23,501 nucleotides of DNA from a virus. Below the pieces are notes generated by a model that was not told the DNA's origin, did no database searches, and saw only the letters and a program-made list of their open reading frames with translations. Below, piece by piece: positions 7,918-23,191 of the stretch (position 1 is its first letter; each line of letters starts with the position of its first letter). The DNA is taken from the IMG/VR virus record IMGVR_UViG_3300022150_000002, positions 1 to 23,501 of that record. The stretch is one strand, 5' to 3'. A program made the position numbers and the translations under genes.

Positions 7918-8943
7918 TTCAACAGGCGGTACGAATTTCGTAATGCCTTTGATGATGCCGATTGCGTCGGTTTCTTCGACGATGTAATCCACGTTTTCAG
8001 AGTTATAGTCTTCCACGCGTGAACGCTTCGGCTCGTCTTTGATGTGGCGACGCAACGACCCTTCTTGCAGATAGATAGACAAGTTTTCTGGGTAAGTCAC
8101 AATCACAGTGCCAGACGGGAAAAACGGCGGTGTAATGGCTTTAAGGCCAGCAAAAATACCGGTTACACGGTTATCGTTTACCTGTGTTTTTTCCGTTGCT
8201 TTGTCACCATTAGCGGCCAAACTTTCAAGGCGGTAATCGCTCATTAAGTCGGACGAAATGAACGCGACCAACTCGGAATCGTCGCGCAAATGTTCAGGGA
8301 TCATTTGCTTAGCACTTTCAACAACTACGTCTAAGTTGCGCACATCCGCATCAACATGGCCGAAGGTCAAACCGTCTTCGTCAATTTGCGCTGGCGCTTC
8401 TTCACGTACTTTTTGAATCCAACCTTTATTGACGTCTTCGCCATTCGGATTTGTCGCTTTGTTGGTTGTGGCTGCAATGGACACACCATGCCAACCAATT
8501 CGCACGCGATCATCGACCATGGCTTTACGATATAAAGCCGAATAAAAATCACCGTATTGCTGTGGCGTACGGTTGCGCCACTGATCCAATTTTGCATAGC
8601 CAATATGCACATCGGTTTCAGTGAACTGGCATTCATATCCTTTTGAATCTTCACTAACAACGCTAGACGTCTGACGGTCTGTGTTGTTGGTATTGGTTCG
8701 TTTAGTGACTAAACCCGACACCATCAGGCCAACTTTCTCGCCCTTGATCTCGTCAACCACGGCAACATTGATCATGCCTAGGAACCACGCGCCATGCTCA
8801 ACCGCTTTTTCGTACAAGCGTTGCTGCACAGACGGCGTCACGTCGAATTGTTCGCCAAGGGAAGCGCCCACCGCTGCATAAACGGTATTCAGATACGCTT
8901 TTAATTGCGTTCTGCCCTGTACTGATAACGATTTTTTAGCCAT
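7915..8943 (-). CDS. Major capsid protein, gpN-like
   Basis: A 342-residue protein close in size to P2 gpN (357). The order of motifs follows the family: the N-terminal helix cleaved or ordered during maturation (GRTQLKAYLNTVYAAVGASL), a V-rich P-domain (FLGMINVAVVDEIKGEKVGL), the E-loop area (ECQFTETDVHIGYAKLDQWR) and the C-terminal A-domain (YPENLSIYLQEGSLRRHIKD ... YIVEETDAIGIIKGITK). It forms the icosahedral shell (HK97 fold). It starts at ATG 8943 with AGGAAAAG. The gene follows gpO and precedes gpM as in P2. No truncation is seen. Confidence 0.96.
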   Translation of the reverse strand: MAKKSLSVQGRTQLKAYLNTVYAAVGASLGEQFDVTPSVQQRLYEKAVEHGAWFLGMINVAVVDEIKGEKVGLMVSGLVTKRTNTNNTDRQTSSVVSEDSKGYECQFTETDVHIGYAKLDQWRNRTPQQYGDFYSALYRKAMVDDRVRIGWHGVSIAATTNKATNPNGEDVNKGWIQKVREEAPAQIDEDGLTFGHVDADVRNLDVVVESAKQMIPEHLRDDSELVAFISSDLMSDYRLESLAANGDKATEKTQVNDNRVTGIFAGLKAITPPFFPSGTVIVTYPENLSIYLQEGSLRRHIKDEPKRSRVEDYNSENVDYIVEETDAIGIIKGITKFVPPVE

Positions 8944-13723: not shown

Positions 13724-14224
13724 TCATTCCTTCATTCCATATCTCACTAATATTCTTTTAAACCGCGCTTTGTACTGTTCTTGATTTTTAGGCGGTAGCC
13801 ATTCATCTAAGCCTTTTGCACCTTTTTGTCTGTTTAACCTGGCTTCGACGGCGACGAGGTTTATTGGGTCGTTAGCAAACTGTTTTCGCTTTTCCTTGCT
13901 CCATTTATCCGCGCCATGATCCCATGCCCATTTCAGTGGCACTATGTGGTCTATGTCTATCTTTGACGCATCAAATATTACTTCACCGGAATACATAGAA
14001 ATCCAACGACCAAAGACTACACGGCACTGCTTGTCGGTATTAAAACGAACAGGTGCTGTTGATAATGAAATAAGAAGCTCTTGTCGTGTGTTCTGACAAT
14101 CTCGGTCAATATCTGCCCAGCCGCTACCAAACTCACTTCGTTTGTATTTCGCCCCGTCCGCAAGCGCATTACCCGCCAGCAACAACGACACAAATAGACA
14201 AAAAACACACCATATCTTCATCAT
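13724..14224 (-). CDS. Exported HNH-family (DUF1524-like) nuclease, accessory gene
   Basis: A 166-residue protein with a clear signal peptide: MMKIW, the hydrophobic stretch CVFCLFVSLLLAG and an AxA cleavage site ending at Ala22. The mature part has the His-Me finger pattern: IDHIVPLKWAWDHGA with Asp92-His93, then DPINLVAVEARLNRQKG with Asn122 and Asn131, as in the small secreted DUF1524/HNH nucleases. Cys43 and Cys67 may form a disulfide outside the cytoplasm. It should cut DNA in the periplasm or medium. It is convergent with the portal operon (11 bases apart) and stands alone, so it looks like a moron. The signal peptide makes it unlikely to be the packaging HNH protein found beside some terminases. 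Possible roles: degrading incoming phage DNA or free DNA. Confidence 0.88.
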   Translation of the reverse strand: MMKIWCVFCLFVSLLLAGNALADGAKYKRSEFGSGWADIDRDCQNTRQELLISLSTAPVRFNTDKQCRVVFGRWISMYSGEVIFDASKIDIDHIVPLKWAWDHGADKWSKEKRKQFANDPINLVAVEARLNRQKGAKGLDEWLPPKNQEQYKARFKRILVRYGMKE

Positions 14225-14242
14225 GGAACAAACCTTATAACG

Positions 14243-14273
14243 GTTAAAACTTAAAAACGTGACGTGTCACGCT
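14243..14273 (-). repeat. 31-bp repeat copy 1, with dyad CGTGAC-GT-GTCACG
   Basis: This copy differs by one base from 16851-16881. It contains an AT-rich half (GTTAAAACTTAAAAA) and a perfect 6-bp-arm dyad at 14258-14271. It sits 33 bases upstream of the HNH gene start and also upstream of the divergent PH-SHOCT gene. A -10-like TATAAG lies between dyad and gene, 18 bases from GTCACG. It is most simply an operator or activator site. Confidence 0.75.
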
Positions 14274-14281
14274 TGGCGAAA

Positions 14282-14311
14282 TTGTTTATAGTGCCCTTTT
14301 CACATTATGTA
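14282..14311 (+). promoter_or_regulatory. Possible promoter of PH-SHOCT gene
   Basis: TTGTTT at 14282-14287 and TATGTA at 14306-14311 are separated by 18 bases. The gene follows 19 bases later with AAGGA as ribosome site. The match is moderate, and no other promoter is seen for this isolated plus-strand gene. Confidence 0.4.
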
Positions 14312-14330
14312 AACTTAAGGATAAGGAACG

Positions 14331-14885
14331 ATGTTCGATTATAAAAATGCTTCTAAAGACCAGTTAAAAAATCAATTCAAGACGATTGCTCACGAAATGG
14401 GAGACGATCAGTTTTTCACTAAGAAAGAGCTCTATTACCTCCCTGAAGTATTAATGAACAACGAGCAAGTACTTGGTTTCACTTCCGGCATGATGGATAA
14501 CAATACTTGGTTAATTACTCTGACTGACCGTCGAATTATTTTCTTAGACAAAGGTATGCTCTATGGCCTAAGACAATCCTCCACAAACCTAGACAAGATA
14601 AATGCTATATCAGGCGAAACAGGCATGCTATTTGGCACCATTCTGATTACCGATGGCTCGACGACAAGCACGATAAAGCAGGTTTTAAAGAAAACGGTAA
14701 AGAATTTCACAAATAAAGCTCAAGATGCAATCGAAGCCCACCGCGTACAATCGCACCAACAACCGCCACAAAAAGAACAAGCCGCCGATCCATACGAAAA
14801 ACTGGAAAAGCTCGCAGGACTAAGAGACAAAGGCATTATTTCCGAAGAAGAATTTAATGCTGAAAAGAAAAAGATCCTCTCCTAA
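14331..14885 (+). CDS. PH-domain plus SHOCT-domain protein, accessory gene
   Basis: A 184-residue cytoplasmic protein. Residues about 38-125 look like a bacterial PH domain of the YokE type: EQVLGFTSGMMDNNTWLITL, then TDRRIIFLDKGMLYG and ITDGSTT strands, ending in a long helix. Residues about 153-184 are a SHOCT motif, KLEKLAGLRDKGIISEEEF, a short domain usually found at protein ends and thought to mediate oligomerisation. A glutamine-rich linker joins them. It is the only plus-strand gene here, with its own ribosome site and terminator and AT-richer DNA than the morphogenesis genes, all marks of a moron expressed in the lysogen. The biochemical role is unknown; a stress or membrane-exclusion function is only a guess. 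Confidence 0.82.
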   Translation: MFDYKNASKDQLKNQFKTIAHEMGDDQFFTKKELYYLPEVLMNNEQVLGFTSGMMDNNTWLITLTDRRIIFLDKGMLYGLRQSSTNLDKINAISGETGMLFGTILITDGSTTSTIKQVLKKTVKNFTNKAQDAIEAHRVQSHQQPPQKEQAADPYEKLEKLAGLRDKGIISEEEFNAEKKKILS

Positions 14886-14888
14886 CCA

Positions 14889-14914
14889 AAACGCCCCATC
14901 ATTGGGGCGTTTTC
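14889..14914. terminator. Rho-independent terminator after PH-SHOCT gene
   Basis: A perfect 10-bp stem, AAACGCCCCA (14889-14898) with TGGGGCGTTT (14903-14912), has loop TCAT and a T-rich tail. It begins four bases after the stop. The A-run on its left side makes it usable in both directions, and it overlaps the stop of the minus-strand gene at 14899. Confidence 0.92.
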
Positions 14915-15087
14915 TTATCCTTGTCACCAACAACCCAATGCCGATTTGATAATATCGGTTTTCGCTCGCCGCAGCTTGGGCAGTCTTTTAATGTCGCGGT
15001 ATGTGCACCTTGGTCTTTTCGCTTATAACCATTTTTCAGCATGCATTGATGGCACAACTCCAAAACACTTTCATTTTCTTGTTTCAT
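14899..15087 (-). CDS. Small zinc-ribbon protein
   Basis: A 62-residue protein, MKQENESVLELCHQCMLKNG..., starting at ATG 15087 in an ATGA overlap with the gene upstream. Two CxxC knuckles, CHQC (12-15) and CPSC (36-39), with a basic stretch between them, make a four-cysteine zinc ribbon likely. Such small proteins are common in phage early or accessory regions and often bind nucleic acid or an RNA-polymerase-associated partner, but no family is recognised. Its stop lies inside the shared terminator hairpin, so it is the last gene of this minus-strand group. Confidence 0.68.
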   Translation of the reverse strand: MKQENESVLELCHQCMLKNGYKRKDQGAHTATLKDCPSCGERKPILSNRHWVVGDKDKKTPQ

Positions 15088-15545
15088 AAATCGCCCGCAT
15101 ATTTCAGCCCAAAGAAGTCCATTATAAATTCGTCCATTTCCTCTTTTATCGGTATACCGTTTTCGTCACAGCGCTTATTTTCGCCCTGGCTACTCACCAG
15201 CACGCGAAAGCCATAGCCGTAAAACAGAAAATATTCCGGTCTATACAGGCCCACATTTTCATCATCTTTTGTGTACCGTAAAGCCGGCTCATTATGCCGA
15301 CTAACCAAAACCCTTTCTTTTCTTTCTAACATCACACTTTTGTGAGAGTCATGCACTTCAAAGAAATTAAATTCGCTTTTACCTTGGCCGTGAAATTTAC
15401 CGTCAAACAGTTTAGGGATTTTTATAAAATCCTCTTTTTCAATCTCGCCTTTTTTAAACTGGCAATGCATGCATTTTTCAATCTCATATAGACCACCAAG
15501 CCCTTTTCTAAAGCCATGATCTATGCATATTAGTTTCTGCCTCAT
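15084..15545 (-). CDS. Hypothetical phage protein with N-terminal Cys motif
   Basis: A 153-residue protein, not recognised. The first 30 residues contain CIDHGFRKGLGGLY and CMHC (Cys25, Cys28), with Cys7 and His9, which could hold a zinc ion. The rest is a mixed alpha/beta, charged sequence including RPEYFLFYGYGFRVLVSSQG and the acidic end EEMDEFIMDFFGLKYAG. It is coupled by ATGA overlaps at both ends: to the downstream zinc-ribbon gene and to a 15-codon mini-frame upstream. Codon use and tight packing support a real gene. It could be a small host-takeover or defence gene; nothing in the sequence decides. Confidence 0.68.
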   Translation of the reverse strand: MRQKLICIDHGFRKGLGGLYEIEKCMHCQFKKGEIEKEDFIKIPKLFDGKFHGQGKSEFNFFEVHDSHKSVMLERKERVLVSRHNEPALRYTKDDENVGLYRPEYFLFYGYGFRVLVSSQGENKRCDENGIPIKEEMDEFIMDFFGLKYAGDL

Positions 15546-15589
15546 AAGCCACCCATTTTTTTCATTTGTGCGATCAAATCATTATGCAT
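15542..15589 (-). CDS. 15-residue leader-like mini-ORF bridging two genes
   Basis: The frame MHNDLIAQMKKMGGL starts in a TGATG overlap with the stop of the gene at 15589-16149 and ends in an ATGA overlap with the start at 15545. It would carry ribosomes without a break between two genes otherwise separated by 43 bases. It may be a coupling device or the remains of a larger gene. Confidence 0.4.
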   Translation of the reverse strand: MHNDLIAQMKKMGGL

Positions 15590-16149
15590 CAAAGTTTCGA
15601 CCTGTCATGGTTTTTAACAGGCATACGCCGTGCACCCATAATCACTGCGTTCCTAGCCCTAGCCAAATGACGATCAAACAAGCAATGTTCGTCACGCTGA
15701 CAATTTGGATCTAAGCAGTATCGGCAATAGGGTGTTTGTTCTGGTTTGCTCATCCTTGCTGCGGCCCTTCCTATTTTATCAATAGCCTTATCGATTGCCT
15801 TTCTATCATGCCTAAAATCATGAAAGTAACGGCCTGCTGGCATATCACATGACGTTACCGCGTTCATATCGATCTTGAAATCATGGTTAAAAAAGTGGCT
15901 TTTCGGCACGGGTATAGATTCCGCGACGCGTTCGCCTAGTAGCCGTTTGTTGTCGCACTCCACGACGGCCACTTTCAAAAGTAGTTCGTCTATCAAGTGC
16001 TTTGGTATCACGTAGCTCTCTACACGTCCATGACGGGCAATAGCAATGATATCAGCACAATTTACTGCCGTGGCGAGCGTTCCGTTATCTATCTGTCCGA
16101 GGGTGATTTTCTTGGCGTGTTCGATGGTGGTTTCTAGGTTGTTGCTCAT
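15589..16149 (-). CDS. Hypothetical phage protein with C-terminal Cys cluster
   Basis: A 186-residue protein, MSNNLETTIEHAKKITLGQI..., starting at ATG 16149, five bases after the exonuclease stop. The N-terminal half is helical. The middle is rich in His and Asp (GRYFHDFRHDRKAIDKAIDK). Near the end is a cluster, YCRYCLDPNCQRDEHCLFDR, with four cysteines and a histidine that could form a small zinc site, followed by a basic tail (ARNAVIMGARRMPVKNHDRS). No family is recognised. Its place next to the exonuclease suggests a shared nucleic-acid role, which is only an inference. Confidence 0.68.
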   Translation of the reverse strand: MSNNLETTIEHAKKITLGQIDNGTLATAVNCADIIAIARHGRVESYVIPKHLIDELLLKVAVVECDNKRLLGERVAESIPVPKSHFFNHDFKIDMNAVTSCDMPAGRYFHDFRHDRKAIDKAIDKIGRAAARMSKPEQTPYCRYCLDPNCQRDEHCLFDRHLARARNAVIMGARRMPVKNHDRSKL

Positions 16150-16154
16150 TCTGC

Positions 16155-16823
16155 TTACTCCTCTTCCTTTTCAGCATCAACCCAACCCACCACTTTACCT
16201 CTGCTTGTTACCGCCACTTTCTTTATCTCTTGCTCTGCCGTTTTTATATCTTCACTTAATGCCAACGCCCCTTTGAATTGCTTTAGCACTTCAATGAGTA
16301 TTTTCGCTTCGTGTCTCGCGTCGTCTAGCGCCCTGTGTTGAACGCCCTCGAACGGTAGGTCTTTCTTTGGATCGATATCCAACAACATACGGCCAAATAA
16401 CACAGCGGTGCGTATGGATTGATTCGAACCAAAATCCCACGGCGCGGATCGTCCTAGCTCTGTTTTGAAGGCGTGTTCTAAAATCGTGTTGTCGAATTCA
16501 GGACCATTGCCGAACACTTGGGGGCGCTTGATGCCCGTCTGCTCTATCCATTCCCCAAACAATTCTAAACCGTCTTTTAACGCTCCATCATTGAAAGGCT
16601 TAAACACCTCTTCCCAAGCTTCAAAATTTTCATTTCTCTGCTTTTCCCACCACGCCATTGTTGATTCGCTTACCGTTCGTCCTGGCTGATTTTGACCCAT
16701 AACGCAATTAAACGTTTCCCCAATAGTTAGCGTGTCGGTATCTACGACCACGGCACCAATCGACAGAATAACCGCTGTTTGTAGTGTGTCTTTTGTTTCA
16801 ATGTCTGTAACGATGACTTTCAT
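16155..16823 (-). CDS. DEDDh-type 3'-5' exonuclease
   Basis: A 222-residue nuclease of the RNase T/DnaQ superfamily, close to phage DexA-like and Rv2179c-like exonucleases. Motif Exo I is VTDIETKD (Asp6, Glu8), Exo II is FGNGPEFDNTILEHAF with Asp at about 110, and Exo III is HRALDDARHEAKIL with the His and Asp at about 163 and 167, so the metal-binding set is complete. It should remove 3' ends of single-stranded DNA or RNA with two metal ions. ATG 16823 has AGGA nine bases upstream. A repeat with a dyad (16851-16881) lies just before it, suggesting its own promoter distinct from the early operon. The C-terminus is an acidic tail. Confidence 0.9.
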   Translation of the reverse strand: MKVIVTDIETKDTLQTAVILSIGAVVVDTDTLTIGETFNCVMGQNQPGRTVSESTMAWWEKQRNENFEAWEEVFKPFNDGALKDGLELFGEWIEQTGIKRPQVFGNGPEFDNTILEHAFKTELGRSAPWDFGSNQSIRTAVLFGRMLLDIDPKKDLPFEGVQHRALDDARHEAKILIEVLKQFKGALALSEDIKTAEQEIKKVAVTSRGKVVGWVDAEKEEE

Positions 16824-16850
16824 AATGTGTTTTCCTGTTTACTTTACAGT

Positions 16851-16881
16851 GTTAAAAATTAAAAACGTGACGTGTCACGCT
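16851..16881 (-). repeat. 31-bp repeat copy 2, with dyad CGTGAC-GT-GTCACG
   Basis: 30 of 31 bases match the copy at 14243-14273. The dyad is at 16866-16879, 42 bases upstream of the exonuclease ATG and 4 bases after the stop of the small gene ending at 16884. In the minus direction the dyad is followed by TTTTT, so here it could also act as a terminator; the other copy has no gene in a position to need one. Confidence 0.75.
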
Positions 16882-16883
16882 AT

Positions 16884-17270
16884 TTATAATCTCAGTTTCT
16901 TTTCTTCTCGCGTGTACCAGCATTCCGCCACGCCTTTTAGCCTTGGCAGGCCAAGGCCATTTTTGCAGCCCATCGGTAAGGGCTCGCCACAAAAGTCGCA
17001 TTGTCCTAAATGCTGCTTTTCCGCTTCCATCCTCTCCTTGTCGCGGCGGATCAGTGTGGCTATGTATTCGTTGGCCTCGTATGGTTCAGCACCGCCGCGA
17101 TAAGCGCACAGCTCGGCCAGTGTTTCGGACTCGGTTTGTGATAATGGAACTCGGTATTCATGAATACCGAGTTCCGATTTTTTTTCAGCGTCTCGTGCAC
17201 GCTTGGCGCGCTGGCGCTCTTTGTCTTGCTGGCGCTTTTGGTCGGCTTTGGCTTGGTCGTTGTTTTTCAT
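16884..17270 (-). CDS. Small basic phage protein with Cys motif, last gene of early operon
   Basis: A 128-residue protein, not recognised, starting in an ATGA overlap with the methylase stop. The first 35 residues are lysine/arginine-rich and helical (QKRQQDKERQRAKRARDAEK). A central part (SQTESETLAELCAYRGGAEP, then EANEYIATLIRRDKERM) looks like the helices of a small DNA-binding or ribbon-helix-helix-like fold. The C-terminal part has CDFCGEPLPMGC and a later Cys (AECWYTREEK), a probable zinc site. Its coding sequence contains a perfect 30-bp palindrome (17146-17175), which encodes ELGIHEYRV. Related small proteins follow methylase or Rep genes in other P2-like prophages (recall). Confidence 0.72.
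   Translation of the reverse strand: MKNNDQAKADQKRQQDKERQRAKRARDAEKKSELGIHEYRVPLSQTESETLAELCAYRGGAEPYEANEYIATLIRRDKERMEAEKQHLGQCDFCGEPLPMGCKNGLGLPRLKGVAECWYTREEKKLRL
17146..17185 (+). repeat. Perfect 30-bp palindrome followed by T8
   Basis: GGAACTCGGTATTCA (17146-17160) is followed directly by its exact reverse complement (17161-17175), with no spacer. On the plus strand GA and eight T follow (17178-17185), so transcription in that direction would meet a terminator-like stem with a T-run. It lies inside the 128-residue gene, antisense to it. No other inverted repeat of this length was seen in the window. Confidence 0.9.
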
Positions 17271-18649
17271 GCCGCTATCTCGACGCGCAATGGTTTATAG
17301 TTAGACGCTGCCAATGCTTGTGCTAATGGCGGGCAAACGGCATTGCCACAGCGCGCCACTTGGTTTGCCTTTGTTAATTTCTTGCCTTGGCTGTCATGAC
17401 TTATTTTGTAATCCGCTGGAAAGCCCATACCTTTGAAAAGCTCGTATGGCTCCAGCATGCGCAAGCCAATATCAATAATTTGGTAAGCCGTCCCCTTCAC
17501 CATGACCAATCCGAAACGATCCCGCGTGGTAATGGTGTGCAAAGGTTTATCTATCTCTTGAGCGCCACCCGTTCCGTAGTACTCGATAAGAAACGCGCGC
17601 ACTTCGCCAAGATGAAAACCGCCGGCTGAAATAGTGTGCAAAGGCTCGTTGGTGCCGTGGCCTATGTTGTCACCGCGAAACTTCACGATGTGGCTAGTGA
17701 CCAAAGCAAAATGACCGCCTTTAACTTGCGCGCAAATCGTGCGTAATGGTTCGTCTATCGCCATATTTCTTTGATGGCTTGCATTCGCGTATTCGGTAAT
17801 AAAACTTATCTTGGTTGGATCAGGCGCAAGAAACGGCGCTTCCGTAAAAGCAAACTTTTCCAACCCCTTGGCGATCCGTTTCAATGAGTTTTCAGCCAAA
17901 GGCTTTTTTCTTCCGAAGATCGATTTCACAGGTAAATTCCAATCGATAATTTCCGCCGCTGTTTTGTATGGCTGCAGCCCTTCTCCGTGCGTTGGTTCCG
18001 GCCATATGATTGGTTCACCGTCTTTGCGGGCAATCAAAAATAAACGGCTTCGCGTTGTGGGTACGCCATAATCACACGCTTTCATCACTCGCCATTCCAC
18101 CTGGTAACCCAAACCGCGTTCGATTTTTGATAAGTCGAATTCCTCACCTAGCGCGTGTTTTACGTCTTCAGTGCTTGGATGATTTAAAGCAAGCCCCGTT
18201 GTCAGTGCGGATATGAACGCTTTGAATGTTTCGCCTTTTCGCTTTTTGCACGGCTTGCCATCCACTACAGGGCCCCACGTCAAAAACTCTTCTACGTTTT
18301 CAAGCATGAACATACGAACAGGCACCGACGCGGCCCAACGAACGGCCACCCACGCCAAGCCACGAATATTATTGTTTACTGGCGTGGCGCCTTTGGCTTT
18401 TGAAAAATGTTTGCAGTCTGGTGAAAACCAAGCCAACCCAACGGGATGACCATTGCACGCCTCTACCGGATCAACGTCCCATACCGATTCGCAGTAATGG
18501 CGCGTTTCTGGATGATTCATTTTGTGCATATCGATGGCCGCTTGGTCGTGATTGATAGCAATATCAACATGGCGATTTAAACCCAGTTCAATGCCAGTGC
18601 TCGCACCACCACCGCCCGCAAAATTGTCGACTATGATTTCCCGTTTCAT
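17267..18649 (-). CDS. DNA (cytosine-5) methyltransferase, orphan
   Basis: A 460-residue C5 methylase that transfers methyl from SAM to cytosine. Motif I is DNFAGGGGAS (9-18), motif IV is FSPDCKHFS with the nucleophile Cys79 in SPDC instead of the usual PCQ, motif VI is ENVEEF (117-122), motif VIII is TTRSRLFLIA, and the motif IX-X region ends ARCGNAVCPP. The probable target-recognition region holds three related units: EPLRTICAQ...GGHFALV, EPLHTISAGGFHLGEV and KPLHTITTRDRFGLV. The ATG at 18649 is chosen because AGAGGTG precedes it; a GTG at 18655 lies inside that site. No restriction enzyme gene is adjacent, so it probably protects phage DNA from host restriction. It overlaps the following gene by ATGA. 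Confidence 0.94.
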   Translation of the reverse strand: MKREIIVDNFAGGGGASTGIELGLNRHVDIAINHDQAAIDMHKMNHPETRHYCESVWDVDPVEACNGHPVGLAWFSPDCKHFSKAKGATPVNNNIRGLAWVAVRWAASVPVRMFMLENVEEFLTWGPVVDGKPCKKRKGETFKAFISALTTGLALNHPSTEDVKHALGEEFDLSKIERGLGYQVEWRVMKACDYGVPTTRSRLFLIARKDGEPIIWPEPTHGEGLQPYKTAAEIIDWNLPVKSIFGRKKPLAENSLKRIAKGLEKFAFTEAPFLAPDPTKISFITEYANASHQRNMAIDEPLRTICAQVKGGHFALVTSHIVKFRGDNIGHGTNEPLHTISAGGFHLGEVRAFLIEYYGTGGAQEIDKPLHTITTRDRFGLVMVKGTAYQIIDIGLRMLEPYELFKGMGFPADYKISHDSQGKKLTKANQVARCGNAVCPPLAQALAASNYKPLRVEIAA

Positions 18650-18651
18650 GC

Positions 18652-18903
18652 TCACCTCTTCAAGTCCAATTCATTTTGTTGGTTAACCAATGCGCGGGCC
18701 ATGTCGTAGACGTCGGATTGTGGCGGGTTGATGTAGTGCTTGAATTCCATACCAAAAACCGCGCGCGCGCCGCACCCGTCCTTCTCTACGCACTGCACGT
18801 AAAGTTCTTTGTAAAACACGTCTTTTATGTCTTTTGCTAAATCGTTGCTGTTCGTGATAATCGCCTTGCCTTTACACCGTGGACATTTAACCCGTACTGA
18901 CAT
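18652..18903 (-). CDS. Ogr/Delta-like zinc-finger late activator
   Basis: An 83-residue protein from ATG 18903, which follows a strong site, GGAGGTG; the frame is open further back to a GTG at 18975 but that reading lies inside Rep. It matches the Ogr/Delta family: CPRC (Cys7, Cys10), then a helix, YVQC (Cys38) and Cys44, together one zinc, then VFGMEFKHYINPP. In P2 this protein activates late promoters by contacting RNA polymerase alpha, so it should turn on the divergent operons around 9896-10071. In P2 ogr lies near the tail genes; here it follows Rep with a 17-base overlap, making it an early-operon product. The second Cys pair has five residues between the cysteines, a slightly wider gap than usual. 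Confidence 0.88.
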   Translation of the reverse strand: MSVRVKCPRCKGKAIITNSNDLAKDIKDVFYKELYVQCVEKDGCGARAVFGMEFKHYINPPQSDVYDMARALVNQQNELDLKR

Positions 18904-20671
18904 TTGCGCCACCTCCACCGCTTCCGGTTCGCTGATTTCCGAGGCCGAAACTCGGCCCCGTACAGTTATTGACACGAGTCCAAGGGACGGCTTCGCCGTC
19001 CTCTAAAGAAGAAGACCCTTTTTTACGTACAGTCCACTCGTGAAGGCGAGTCACTAACACACTAATTTCATCAGCCACGCCTTTTACCGCCCTAACCATT
19101 TCGCCATATTGGTTCTCAACCGCTTCGCCATAATGAATTTTTAGCGCCTGATCACGACCAGCAAACACGCCGCCCATGAGTTTGATGAACCCACCATAAT
19201 CAGCACGGTTTGCCGCGTGATAAATGTCTTTGAAAAACTCTGGTGCATTGTCTTTGCCGAACTTACGCAGTTCACGCCACACAGTGACGGACGCACCCCC
19301 AACGAATTGAAACTGACGGATATGATTTAAACGCGCCCACGCAACAATTCTTTTGGCCGCATCAGACCCGCTTCGGCCAGTTTCTAGGTCGGTATCGACG
19401 TGTTTACCATGGATGTTTTTAGAAATGTATTTGACGATGTAACCCACGGCAGAGCCTTTTTCTGGGTCAATCTTTTCGACTTTAACGCGGTACTTTTTCG
19501 CGCCCGCTTCGTTGCCATCTTCTGCCAACGCGTAATCGGAAAACGCCTGTAAAAATTCCTCTGCCCTATTCGGCTCCACCCATAGCATCAAATGCCAATG
19601 CGGACTGCCATCATGATGCGGCTCTACCGTTCGCAAACCATAAAACGTTATGCCATGGCGATTGCAGTACGAACGAAAACGACGCCAAACGCCGTTTAAG
19701 TGGGCATGAGCCCCGCGAACATTTGGGCACTCAGCGCGCCAAAACTTTCTATTTCTGACACTGAAATGTTTCCCGCCTTTTTCAATGGATGTAATCGGAT
19801 GATATTTAGACGGCGCCGTAAGGGTAAGAAAGTAGCCCTCGTGCCCCTCTTCTTCCGCTAGTTCCTCCAAGCCCTTGGCACGAACCACCAATTCAGAAAA
19901 TCGATTATCAGGATTGGATACGCACTTTTCAGACAATTGGGCCAGCGTGAAAGACTGCCCCAATTCGTTAACCGCCTCCCAACTTTCTAAAAAGGCTTTG
20001 TTATTTTCCGCTTGTCTTTCTGCTTTCTTCAGCGCCCAATTAGACACATACGGCGATTTATAACGCTCTACTTCGCCACACTCTCTCAATATATCTTCGA
20101 CGATGACCCATTGCTTTTTAGCCTGCCTTACCCACCACTCCGTGGTGATCATGCGAGCCATAAAACCCAACACTCTGGCATCATCGTCCCAAGCGTCAAA
20201 CTGAATACCCACATCAACAAGCTGGGCATGAATAAAACCCTTTACCCCTTCAATGCCGCTTTCTAGGTAAATACCCATCATTTCGGTTTCGAAGTAATTG
20301 CTCTTTTTCCACGCCCACTGCTGCAATTGCTCGCCGTCTAACTCTGTGATCATCTTGTCGCAAAAGTGAAGGCGCTTAACCACACTACGCAACCACACCA
20401 TGGCAGTTCCTTTTGGCGCCCTTTTCCTCACCTCTAATTCATACAAACGATCACACTCTTTACCGACAACGCCCCGCATTACCGACACTTTCGCCAATAA
20501 CTCAAAGCGCTCAATAACGCCACGCAACCAACCGTTTGCGGCGACATAGCCTTTTTCTGGGTCTAACTCGTCAAGACGCTTTTGCAAAACGGTAGCGTCC
20601 TCACGACTTACACCCGTTAATAACTCCTCGCGCCAAACAAGACATTGTGGAGTTGGATTTGTCTCAAACAT
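18887..20671 (-). CDS. Rolling-circle replication initiator endonuclease, P2 gpA-like
   Basis: A 594-residue HUH endonuclease of the P2 gpA family. Motif 1 is FLTLTAPSKYHP, motif 2 (HUH) is SPHWHLMLW (about residue 357) and motif 3 is GYIVKYISKNI (about 410) with both tyrosines four apart, as in gpA, where they alternate in nicking and joining. It nicks the origin, becomes linked to the 5' end and starts rolling-circle synthesis with host Rep helicase. The N-terminal 250 residues are a helical domain typical of the family. The last 40 residues are low-complexity after VPWTRVNNCTG and overlie the candidate origin. P2 gpA is 761 residues, so this is a shorter version. It overlaps the upstream gene by eight bases. 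Confidence 0.95.
   Translation of the reverse strand: MFETNPTPQCLVWREELLTGVSREDATVLQKRLDELDPEKGYVAANGWLRGVIERFELLAKVSVMRGVVGKECDRLYELEVRKRAPKGTAMVWLRSVVKRLHFCDKMITELDGEQLQQWAWKKSNYFETEMMGIYLESGIEGVKGFIHAQLVDVGIQFDAWDDDARVLGFMARMITTEWWVRQAKKQWVIVEDILRECGEVERYKSPYVSNWALKKAERQAENNKAFLESWEAVNELGQSFTLAQLSEKCVSNPDNRFSELVVRAKGLEELAEEEGHEGYFLTLTAPSKYHPITSIEKGGKHFSVRNRKFWRAECPNVRGAHAHLNGVWRRFRSYCNRHGITFYGLRTVEPHHDGSPHWHLMLWVEPNRAEEFLQAFSDYALAEDGNEAGAKKYRVKVEKIDPEKGSAVGYIVKYISKNIHGKHVDTDLETGRSGSDAAKRIVAWARLNHIRQFQFVGGASVTVWRELRKFGKDNAPEFFKDIYHAANRADYGGFIKLMGGVFAGRDQALKIHYGEAVENQYGEMVRAVKGVADEISVLVTRLHEWTVRKKGSSSLEDGEAVPWTRVNNCTGPSFGLGNQRTGSGGGGANVSTG
18943..19001 (-). other. Candidate phage replication origin (gpA nick region)
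   Basis: On the minus strand CCTTGGACTCGTGTCAA (18969-18985) resembles the P2 gpA cleavage region as I remember it (CCTCGGAGTCCTGTCAA), 14 of 17 bases. It is flanked by two perfect hairpins: GGCCGA-AAC-TCGGCC (18943-18957) and GGACGGC-TTC-GCCGTCC (18985-19001). It lies in the 3' end of the Rep gene, where the protein is low complexity. P2 also keeps its origin within gene A. Confidence 0.7.
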
Positions 20672-21629: not shown

Positions 21630-22094
21630 TTAAAAACGGCCATGTGCAATAACGGCAAGCTCGGTTCTGGTTAACGATTCTTTGGCTTCGTTGAGTTCGC
21701 GTAATATGTCGGAACGTTCGCGCTCGGTAAGTCGGTTATCTGCTAATGCGTTTTGCACGACGGCAAATACGTCGCCGCATTCTTTGCCGTTGCTAATCAT
21801 GGCTTCGAGAATAGAAACGGGCGCGTCTTTCAACGTGTGCAAAACAAGCTCGGATTGCATGGCGCGTAACACCACGTCGTTACCCGTGATCAGTTGAATG
21901 GCGTGGAGCTCGTTTACCGTCATCCAGTTTTTCGCGTTGTTCGGATTAGCCTTGTTGATCAAGATTTGACGATGCATGCCCAATATTTCGGCAATCTCGG
22001 TACAGCTTTTTTCCGATTTATGCACCAAGTCATAAATGGATTGTTTGAAATGGTTGAGCGATTCACCCGCTCTTTCTTCTTGTGTCATGTTCAT
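21630..22094 (-). CDS. Phage regulatory protein CII (CP76-like)
   Basis: A 154-residue protein starting at ATG 22094 after GGGGAG. It matches the CII/CP76 family of P2- and 186-like phages: a helix-turn-helix at about 29-50 (SCTEIAEILGMHRQILINKA), the conserved ANPNNAKNWMTVNELHAIQL and a C-terminal helical oligomerisation part. In phage 186 CII promotes establishment of lysogeny by activating the CI establishment promoter. Here it is the second gene after Cro in the leftward operon and could do the same for the CI gene, which is divergent. No CII half-sites were identified by eye. Confidence 0.88.
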   Translation of the reverse strand: MNMTQEERAGESLNHFKQSIYDLVHKSEKSCTEIAEILGMHRQILINKANPNNAKNWMTVNELHAIQLITGNDVVLRAMQSELVLHTLKDAPVSILEAMISNGKECGDVFAVVQNALADNRLTERERSDILRELNEAKESLTRTELAVIAHGRF

Positions 22095-22125: not shown

Positions 22126-22335
22126 CTAAGCGGATTGCTTATGCTTGGACTCATAAAGTGAAGGGTCGTATTCCAACACCCCTTCAGTGAGGCGCTCTAA
22201 CTTCATGGCCTGTAACTCTGGAATAACGTCGCCCCAGCAGGAAACTGTCTGCCTTGAAACATCAAGCTGCCGCGCGATGTCGCTCTGGTTTTGATTTTTC
22301 GCCTGAAAAAACGCGATCACCTTTTCTTTAAGCAT
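22126..22335 (-). CDS. Cro-like / Cox-like transcriptional regulator
   Basis: A 69-residue HTH protein, first gene of the early operon. The helix-turn-helix is NQSDIARQLDVSRQTVSCWG (residues about 16-35), a Cro-type arrangement, followed by a short acidic and then basic tail. It starts at ATG 22335 with a weak site (GTGAG). Its position opposite CI across an operator region and its size fit Cro; a Cox-like role in excision is also possible, as Cox in P2 phages is this size and sits here. The operator dyad at 22351-22368 lies just upstream of its start. Confidence 0.87.
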   Translation of the reverse strand: MLKEKVIAFFQAKNQNQSDIARQLDVSRQTVSCWGDVIPELQAMKLERLTEGVLEYDPSLYESKHKQSA

Positions 22336-22350
22336 TTCTCACACCCTGTT

Positions 22351-22368
22351 TGTATGTTTATACAGACA
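22351..22368. promoter_or_regulatory. CI-type operator 1
   Basis: TGTATGTTTATACAGACA, an 18-bp near-perfect dyad (one mismatch), differs from the consensus copy at 23150 by one base. It overlaps the -10 box of the promoter for Cro. Confidence 0.88.
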
Positions 22369-22394
22369 ATAAATGTTAAAAAAAACGTTGTCAA
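22366..22394 (-). promoter_or_regulatory. Early promoter driving Cro-CII-Rep operon
   Basis: On the minus strand TTGACA (22394-22389) is followed by 17 bases and TATTGT (22371-22366). The -10 overlaps operator 1, so repressor binding would block RNA polymerase. Confidence 0.83.
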
Positions 22395-22409
22395 CTTCCT
22401 TTACCATAT

Positions 22410-22427
22410 TGTTTTGATTTACAGACA
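22410..22427. promoter_or_regulatory. CI-type operator 2 (half conserved)
   Basis: TGTTTTGATTTACAGACA keeps the right half-site ACAGACA exactly and the left half poorly. It ends ten bases before the CI start codon, over its ribosome site, so CI may limit its own synthesis. Confidence 0.62.
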
Positions 22428-22437
22428 GGCTTTAAAG

Positions 22438-23091
22438 ATGGATATAGGCGAAAGAATTCTTAGAAAGCGCATGGAAATGAAATTAACAGTAAGAGCTTTA
22501 GCCAAGTTGGTAGAGGCATCACCCGCCACAGTCTCTCAATGGGAAAACAATAGAACTCAACCCAATGGCAAAAACCTAAATAATCTTGCCAAGGCTTTTA
22601 AAACTACACCAACATGGTTACTTAATGGCAAGGACTACACAGCAAACACTTCAACAGCTAGCAACGTTGCCGAAGCACCTGCCCAATACAATACAAAATC
22701 TCTTCCTGTTTTAAGCCACGTTCAAGCGGGCGGCTGGATGGAAGCCATCGATTACAGATCACTTGGTGATGATATAGAGTGGGAAGACGCCCCCACCAGA
22801 GCAAGCGATAACTCATTCTGGCTTCGCGTTGTTGGCGACAGCATGACGTCACCGATTGGAATAAGCATCCCTGAAGGCATGTTGATACTGGTGGATCCAG
22901 ACATAGCGCCCGAAAACGGTAAATTAGTAGTCGCGAAACTAGATAACACAGACGAAGCCACCTTTAAAAAATTTGTCATTGATGCTGGTATGAAATCCTT
23001 AAGACCTCTTAACACCACTTATCCCACCATTTCCATCAATGGTAACTGTCAAATTCTTGGCGTTGTAATAGAAGCAAAATTCAAACTCTAA
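22438..23091 (+). CDS. CI-type repressor, S24 self-cleaving
   Basis: A 217-residue repressor. The frame is open further upstream, but ATG 22438 fits the family and lies after the operator region. Residues about 4-60 are an XRE HTH domain (LTVRALAKLVEASPATVSQW). The C-terminal half is a LexA/S24 peptidase: cleavage bond Ala97-Gly98 in HVQAGGW, nucleophile Ser135 in VVGDSMTSP and catalytic Lys177 in ATFKKFV. It should maintain lysogeny and be destroyed after RecA activation, so the phage is probably SOS-inducible, unlike P2 itself whose C repressor is not cleaved. It is divergent from Cro and shares a flanking operator pattern. Confidence 0.95.
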   Translation: MDIGERILRKRMEMKLTVRALAKLVEASPATVSQWENNRTQPNGKNLNNLAKAFKTTPTWLLNGKDYTANTSTASNVAEAPAQYNTKSLPVLSHVQAGGWMEAIDYRSLGDDIEWEDAPTRASDNSFWLRVVGDSMTSPIGISIPEGMLILVDPDIAPENGKLVVAKLDNTDEATFKKFVIDAGMKSLRPLNTTYPTISINGNCQILGVVIEAKFKL

Positions 23092-23129: not shown

Positions 23130-23152
23130 AGTGTTTTTAATACCCCTATTGT
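23124..23152 (+). promoter_or_regulatory. Rightward promoter of the terminal gene
   Basis: TTGACA (23124-23129), 17-base spacer and TATTGT (23147-23152), the same boxes and spacing as the Cro promoter. The -35 overlaps operator 3 and the -10 overlaps operator 4. Confidence 0.82.
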
Positions 23153-23167
23153 CTGTTTATACAGACA
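23150..23167. promoter_or_regulatory. CI-type operator 4 (perfect dyad)
   Basis: TGTCTGTTTATACAGACA is a perfect dyad with a 4-base centre; with one further matching pair the dyad reads TTGTCTGT-TTAT-ACAGACAA. It is the best copy in the window and probably the strongest repressor site. Confidence 0.92.
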
Positions 23168-23191
23168 AGCGATGACAGCAGGGGACAACCA

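Follow-up and report, generated by a model that had tools for sequence, protein, structure and literature searches.

Introduction

In mycobacteriophages, the sites of a phage regulator known as stoperators are dispersed, often lie just past stop codons, and may block an elongating polymerase. Stoperators are asymmetric, oriented with transcription, and numerous, and they are bound by the immunity repressor. The promoter early stem-loop (PeSL) cassettes of T4-type phages combine a repeated stem-loop with promoter elements between exchangeable accessory genes, at mosaic junctions. PeSLs are structural elements, and we know of no cognate regulator for them. In the ribbon-helix-helix repressor–operator pairs (Arc, MetJ, CopG, and the antitoxin type), a small dimeric DNA-binding protein recognizes a short palindromic site.

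Here, we analyzed a repeat in a 23,501-nucleotide stretch of viral DNA (the window), whose dyad, GTGAC-NN-GTCAC, shares features with each of these systems. Comparison with them revealed that (i) in contrast to stoperators, the dyad is symmetric, is present at 1 to 4 sites per genome, and is linked to a small protein distinct from the immunity repressor; (ii) unlike PeSLs, its arms are fixed in sequence and accompany a single regulator gene (PHROG 536), with a PeSL-like promoter at only 7 copies and junctions that coincide with the repeat in individual examples; and (iii) the overlap of one copy with a −35 element resembles repressor sites of the ribbon-helix-helix type, whereas the PHROG 536 protein has a C4 zinc motif and a basic N-terminus in addition, is without a Pfam or NCBIfam model, and has its candidate site where its own gene ends instead of at the promoter of that gene. 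A literature search found no description of the dyad in a phage context.

Results

A 31-bp repeat in the accessory region of a P2-like phage

The window covers part of a P2-like Marinomonas phage: it encodes an Ogr-like protein and the replication protein GpA, and its terminase and portal genes are in the P2-type order. G005, a longer record of this phage, shares 99.99% identity with the window. The two copies of the repeat, at 14243–14273 (copy 1) and 16851–16881 (copy 2; both given on the plus strand), match at 30 of 31 bases (97% identity), as the sequence-only reading of this DNA had reported. Both contain the core CGTGACGTGTCACG (CGTGAC-GT-GTCACG) at 14258–14271 and 16866–16879, respectively. 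A motif scan of the 23.5-kb window counted 2 exact cores and no third, the next plus-oriented match having 3 mismatches.

The distances from the cores to the starts of the 2 minus-strand nuclease genes were also given correctly in that reading: 33 bases to the start (14224) of an HNH nuclease gene (13724–14224; GmrSD_C/HNH domain matches) and 42 bases to the start (16823) of an exonuclease gene (16155–16823; Rv2179c-like/DEDDh domain and profile matches), which is the first accessory gene beyond copy 2. It had missed 2 other neighbors. A plus-strand accessory gene (14331–14885) with a bacterial PH domain (PF14470) and a SHOCT domain (PF09851) begins 60 bases from copy 1, of which it is the likely target, and is followed by a strong predicted intrinsic terminator (14888–14913, plus strand; −17.9 kcal/mol). 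Copy 2 begins 4 bases past the stop codon of a minus-strand gene (16884–17270), which encodes the candidate regulator described below.

Several features of the surrounding genes are recorded here. The N-terminus of the HNH nuclease is hydrophobic and resembles a signal peptide, which is unusual for a phage nuclease, and on this prediction the enzyme may act in the periplasm. A C5 cytosine methylase gene (17267–18655) is located between the regulator gene and the Ogr-like gene in the window phage and in G030; a similar methylase end precedes the regulator homolog in G019, and the methylase is absent from most other relatives. A PADLOC analysis of the accessory genes identified no clear defence system, the only matches being the C5 methylase and generic nucleases. 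A 20-base near-palindrome, TTGT[AC]TGTTTATACAGACAA, at 22350–22369 and 23149–23168, flanks a cI-like gene (22291–23091), and these 2 sites are likely the immunity repressor's own operators. In the relative G001, a second, diverged terminase-like stretch (19129–19848; 33% identity) follows the terminase gene.

Distribution of the repeat in Marinomonas phages and hosts

When viral contigs and genomes were scanned, the extended repeat, (TT)AAAAACGTGACGTGTCACGCT, was recovered from P2-like Marinomonas phages, with 4 copies in G001, 2 each in G002/G041, G006, G009, and G030, and 1 each in G003, G004, and G008. G016 has 1 exact copy and 1 with an altered outer base, and a prophage of M. transparens (G011) has 3. 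All extended copies are confined to the variable accessory region, which separates the late block from the GpA/Ogr block. The recurrence of the repeat at equivalent locations in related phage records and prophages greatly exceeds what chance would produce.

CGTGACGNGTCACG was found in 6 of 48 Marinomonas genomes, and the extended repeat was found in prophages only. The 2 Marinomonas genomes with a dyad outside such prophages (G020, with a single dyad, and G032, with a GC-centered one) were set aside, as the flanks are unrelated. The sequence-only reading had proposed counting copies next to start codons in the whole phage and host genomes. In the whole genome of M. transparens, exact copies are confined to the prophage. 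A 20-base version of the repeat, searched against 84,980 prokaryote genomes, matched solely a Marinomonas prophage, and a nucleotide search of a phage collection returned no relative of the repeat region. The variant CGTGACG[AG]GTCACG (in G002, G005, G008, and G011), which is conserved in integrase-like coding sequence (for example, at G005 898–911), where it is translated as RD[SP]SR, was likewise set aside; it is without the AT tract.

Two placement classes and a predicted promoter

Among the copies in the phage and its relatives, 2 kinds of placement are prominent. Copy 1 belongs to a plus-gene promoter class. A sigma-70 promoter for the PH/SHOCT gene is predicted at 14264–14292 (plus strand), with a −35 element GTGTCA (14264–14269) within the dyad, a 17-base spacer, and a −10 element TATAGT (14287–14292), and the arrangement recurs in relatives: TATAGT or TATATT is located exactly 17 bases past GTGTCA in all 7 plus-gene copies and in none of the 15 others, against a background of 0.46%. 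These 7 promoter-type copies cover at least 4 unrelated plus-strand accessory genes.

Copy 2 belongs to the class located between minus-strand genes, in which the core lies 0–11 bases past the upstream stop codon and 28–42 bases (mostly 31–34) before the next start. Of the 16 copies with a close downstream minus-strand gene start, 12 have the sequence TTAAC about 10 bases past the dyad, compared with 0 of 6 copies without such a start (one-sided Fisher test, approximately 0.003), a pattern that hints at a further function in the minus direction. A sigma-70 promoter toward the minus-strand genes was considered and not adopted, the −10 at 17 bases being inconsistent (TTAAC-type in 2 of 6); at 16-base spacing, TTTAAC is present in 4 of 6 copies, so such a promoter may still exist.

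The proposal that the repeat controls the 2 nuclease genes is unsupported as it stands, because no good sigma-70 −10 was found at the standard 17-base spacing toward either nuclease and many copies are located directly past stop codons. Copy 1 instead reads as the promoter of the PH/SHOCT gene, and in relatives, most genes that adjoin a copy encode proteins other than nucleases.

A candidate regulator of the PHROG 536 family

The minus-strand gene that ends just before copy 2 (16884–17270) encodes a protein of 128 aa with a basic N-terminus, a ribbon-helix-helix-like core, and a C4 zinc motif. Residues 13–128 match positions 3–113 of the 115-position profile of PHROG 536, annotated “transcriptional regulator,” with an E-value of 2.4e-27; no Pfam or NCBIfam family matched at a usable threshold. 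The family is characterized by a conserved basic N-terminus, a central part resembling the ribbon-helix-helix fold, and a cluster of cysteines. In the models (monomers, moderate confidence), a short extended segment is followed by helices at residues 45–56 and 66–88, and the assignment as ribbon-helix-helix-like draws on the sequence pattern together with these models. Structure searches with the models gave nothing significant: all matches were weak (VIA rows: MazE-mt1 complex, Z 3.2; TCP domain, Z 3.0), and the top Foldseek rows were TCP domains with E-values above 1. A weak resemblance to TraR/DksA zinc proteins was also seen (E 0.018–0.45).

The dyad tracks with PHROG 536 genes across phages

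In the Marinomonas relatives, an exact dyad is located 4–11 bases past the stop codon in 9 of 10 regulator orthologs. We then compared 21 phage records with a PHROG 536 homolog (32–48% identity), which had been collected by protein similarity and not by motif. In 10 of them, an exact GTGACNNGTCAC overlaps the regulator's own stop codon or starts at +1 of it: Vibrio phages VPHZ6 and 10N.237.312.C11_PE002A, Pantoea phage AH07, 2 Klebsiella phages, Yersinia phage 06.16-2, Salmonella phages 66FD and SPC32H, Escherichia phage ZX5, and N15. For any one stop codon, an exact dyad is calculated to fall by chance within the 16 surrounding positions with a probability of approximately 1.5e-5. A further 3 records have a one-mismatch dyad at the regulator stop or about 13 bases beyond it, and 1 of the 21 ends inside the site. 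Over whole records with the gene, the dyad is present in 17 of 21 and missing in its exact form from 4, with 38 sites in 861 kb against 0.8 expected, and it is present in 0 of 7 P2-like records without the gene.

A second control comprised 16 IMG/VR records picked solely by one exact 14-mer. Extra dyads were found in 6 of the 7 records with the gene (11 sites) and in none of the 9 without it. Exact matches to the 14-mer in viral contigs numbered 119, of which 20 have a homolog, several of these being weak short forms; most of the 119 are probably chance or unrelated matches.

The phages that combine the dyad with PHROG 536 infect hosts of several families, and their neighboring genes are quite different. 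The arms of the dyad are constant, while the central NN varies between phages and tends to agree inside one phage: CA/TG three times in N15, AG twice in VPHZ6, mostly AT in epsilon15-like phages, and GT in the extended Marinomonas copies. A permutation test on this agreement is inflated by the relatedness of the phages. Constant arms around a variable center suit a symmetric DNA-binding dimer.

Past the stop codons of 2 PHROG 536 homologs, paired dyads are spaced 22–23 bases apart (L024, G438 8582–8616; L055, G440 27257–27290), which suggests possibly cooperative sites, as cooperative operators often are paired in this way. In N15 (AF064539), besides the dyad at the stop codon of gene 46, others are located inside replication gene 37 (33237–33248) and between genes 32 and 33 (28550–28561), and all three carry the same center. 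The dyads of epsilon15-like phages are typically preceded by a stop codon and followed by a separate terminator, which makes a role at transcript ends plausible.

Discussion

We propose, with a probability of about 0.58, that the GTGAC-NN-GTCAC dyad is the binding site of the PHROG 536 regulator (16884–17270 in the window), scattered among accessory genes. This reading, drawn from sequence comparison, agrees with one part of the sequence-only reading, that a single shared regulator acts outside the CI circuit: the association supports it well, the arms being fixed in unrelated phages and tracking with PHROG 536, and the dyad is unlike the repeat that flanks the cI gene. A PHROG 536 dimer would bind the dyad. 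At copy 1, the bound regulator would occlude the −35 element and keep the PH/SHOCT gene repressed for as long as the regulator is present and unaltered. At 3′-end copies (copy 2, for example), the hairpin and the T-run might act together with the bound protein to stop or pause RNA polymerase, and a polymerase block at copy 2 would insulate the accessory genes farther along from the early operon. That the effect runs in this direction, with repression at copy 1 and pausing at copy 2, is a guess. Three records fit the regulator reading poorly. G003 is without the regulator but keeps one exact dyad, its second dyad having decayed; G006 has the regulator but a decayed copy-1-type site; and a copy at 21716 in G001 lies between converging 3′ ends, upstream of no gene, so promoter control cannot explain it.

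Other readings were weighed against the same observations. If the repeat were an intrinsic terminator or insulator hairpin after accessory genes, acting as RNA structure rather than by protein binding, the G001 copy between converging 3′ ends would be well placed, as would the 21 of 40 copies in other phages that lie 0–12 bases past stop codons (3.4% of random positions do). The minus-strand dyad folds and is followed by TTTTTAA (−6.7 to −9.6 kcal/mol); copy 2, read on the minus strand (16864–16881), is a terminator-like weak hairpin (predicted −6.7 kcal/mol) followed by a T-run. The sequence-only reading had allowed a terminator at the second copy only, but terminator-like scoring fits both copies on the minus strand, where a G+C-rich stem with an immediate T-run is marginally present (3 G-C pairs). 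However, the regulator-stop dyads of N15, Pantoea AH07, and VPHZ6 have no T-run, that of N15 running into a ribosome-binding site, and variants at regulator stops (GTGACCGGACAC and GTGACGGGTAAC), which were found without motif bias, break pairs, none of which is compensated. The N15 site and the pair-breaking variants make recognition of the DNA by a protein more likely than a stem in the RNA. Epsilon15-like phages, moreover, have a separate strong terminator beside the dyad, and a hairpin leaves the promoter overlap unexplained; we consider this reading unlikely.

That the repeat is a recombination linker for the exchange of accessory cassettes at gene boundaries, with regulation secondary or absent, seems less plausible still. 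Its copies are restricted to the variable stretch that lies between the late and replication blocks; sequence homology of the genomes sets in or ends at the repeat, as in the G001 and G002 alignments, which begin at 16859; and G001 has 2 genes, the HNH gene and a small one, that are each flanked by 2 copies. On the other hand, about 23 shared bases are short for homologous exchange, and a linker accounts neither for the fixed 17-base spacing to the −10 nor for the association with one regulator across unrelated phages that have nothing common in the flanks. It is quite improbable that the dyad is the operator of another protein, either a host factor or another phage regulator, co-inherited with PHROG 536. 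The dyad kept in G003 without the regulator would suit such a protein, but a host regulon is unlikely given the few Marinomonas genomes with CGTGACGNGTCACG and the prophage-only extended repeat, and phages of several host families have the dyad and PHROG 536 in common although their neighboring genes differ.

Beyond the regulator–site assignment itself, PHROG 536 and GTGAC-NN-GTCAC may, more tentatively, form an undescribed regulator–operator pair of P2-like, epsilon15-like, N15-like, and lambda-like temperate phages that marks the ends and promoters of accessory genes and is located where the regulator gene itself stops. Since the arms do not vary from phage to phage, such a pair could let one prophage regulate the accessory genes of another. 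For phage accessory genes in general, an easily searched dyad with a candidate regulator in unrelated phages would offer a direct handle on the timing of expression and on possible cross-talk of prophages that share a cell. An uncharacterized regulator family, absent from Pfam and NCBIfam, also gains a concrete candidate binding site.
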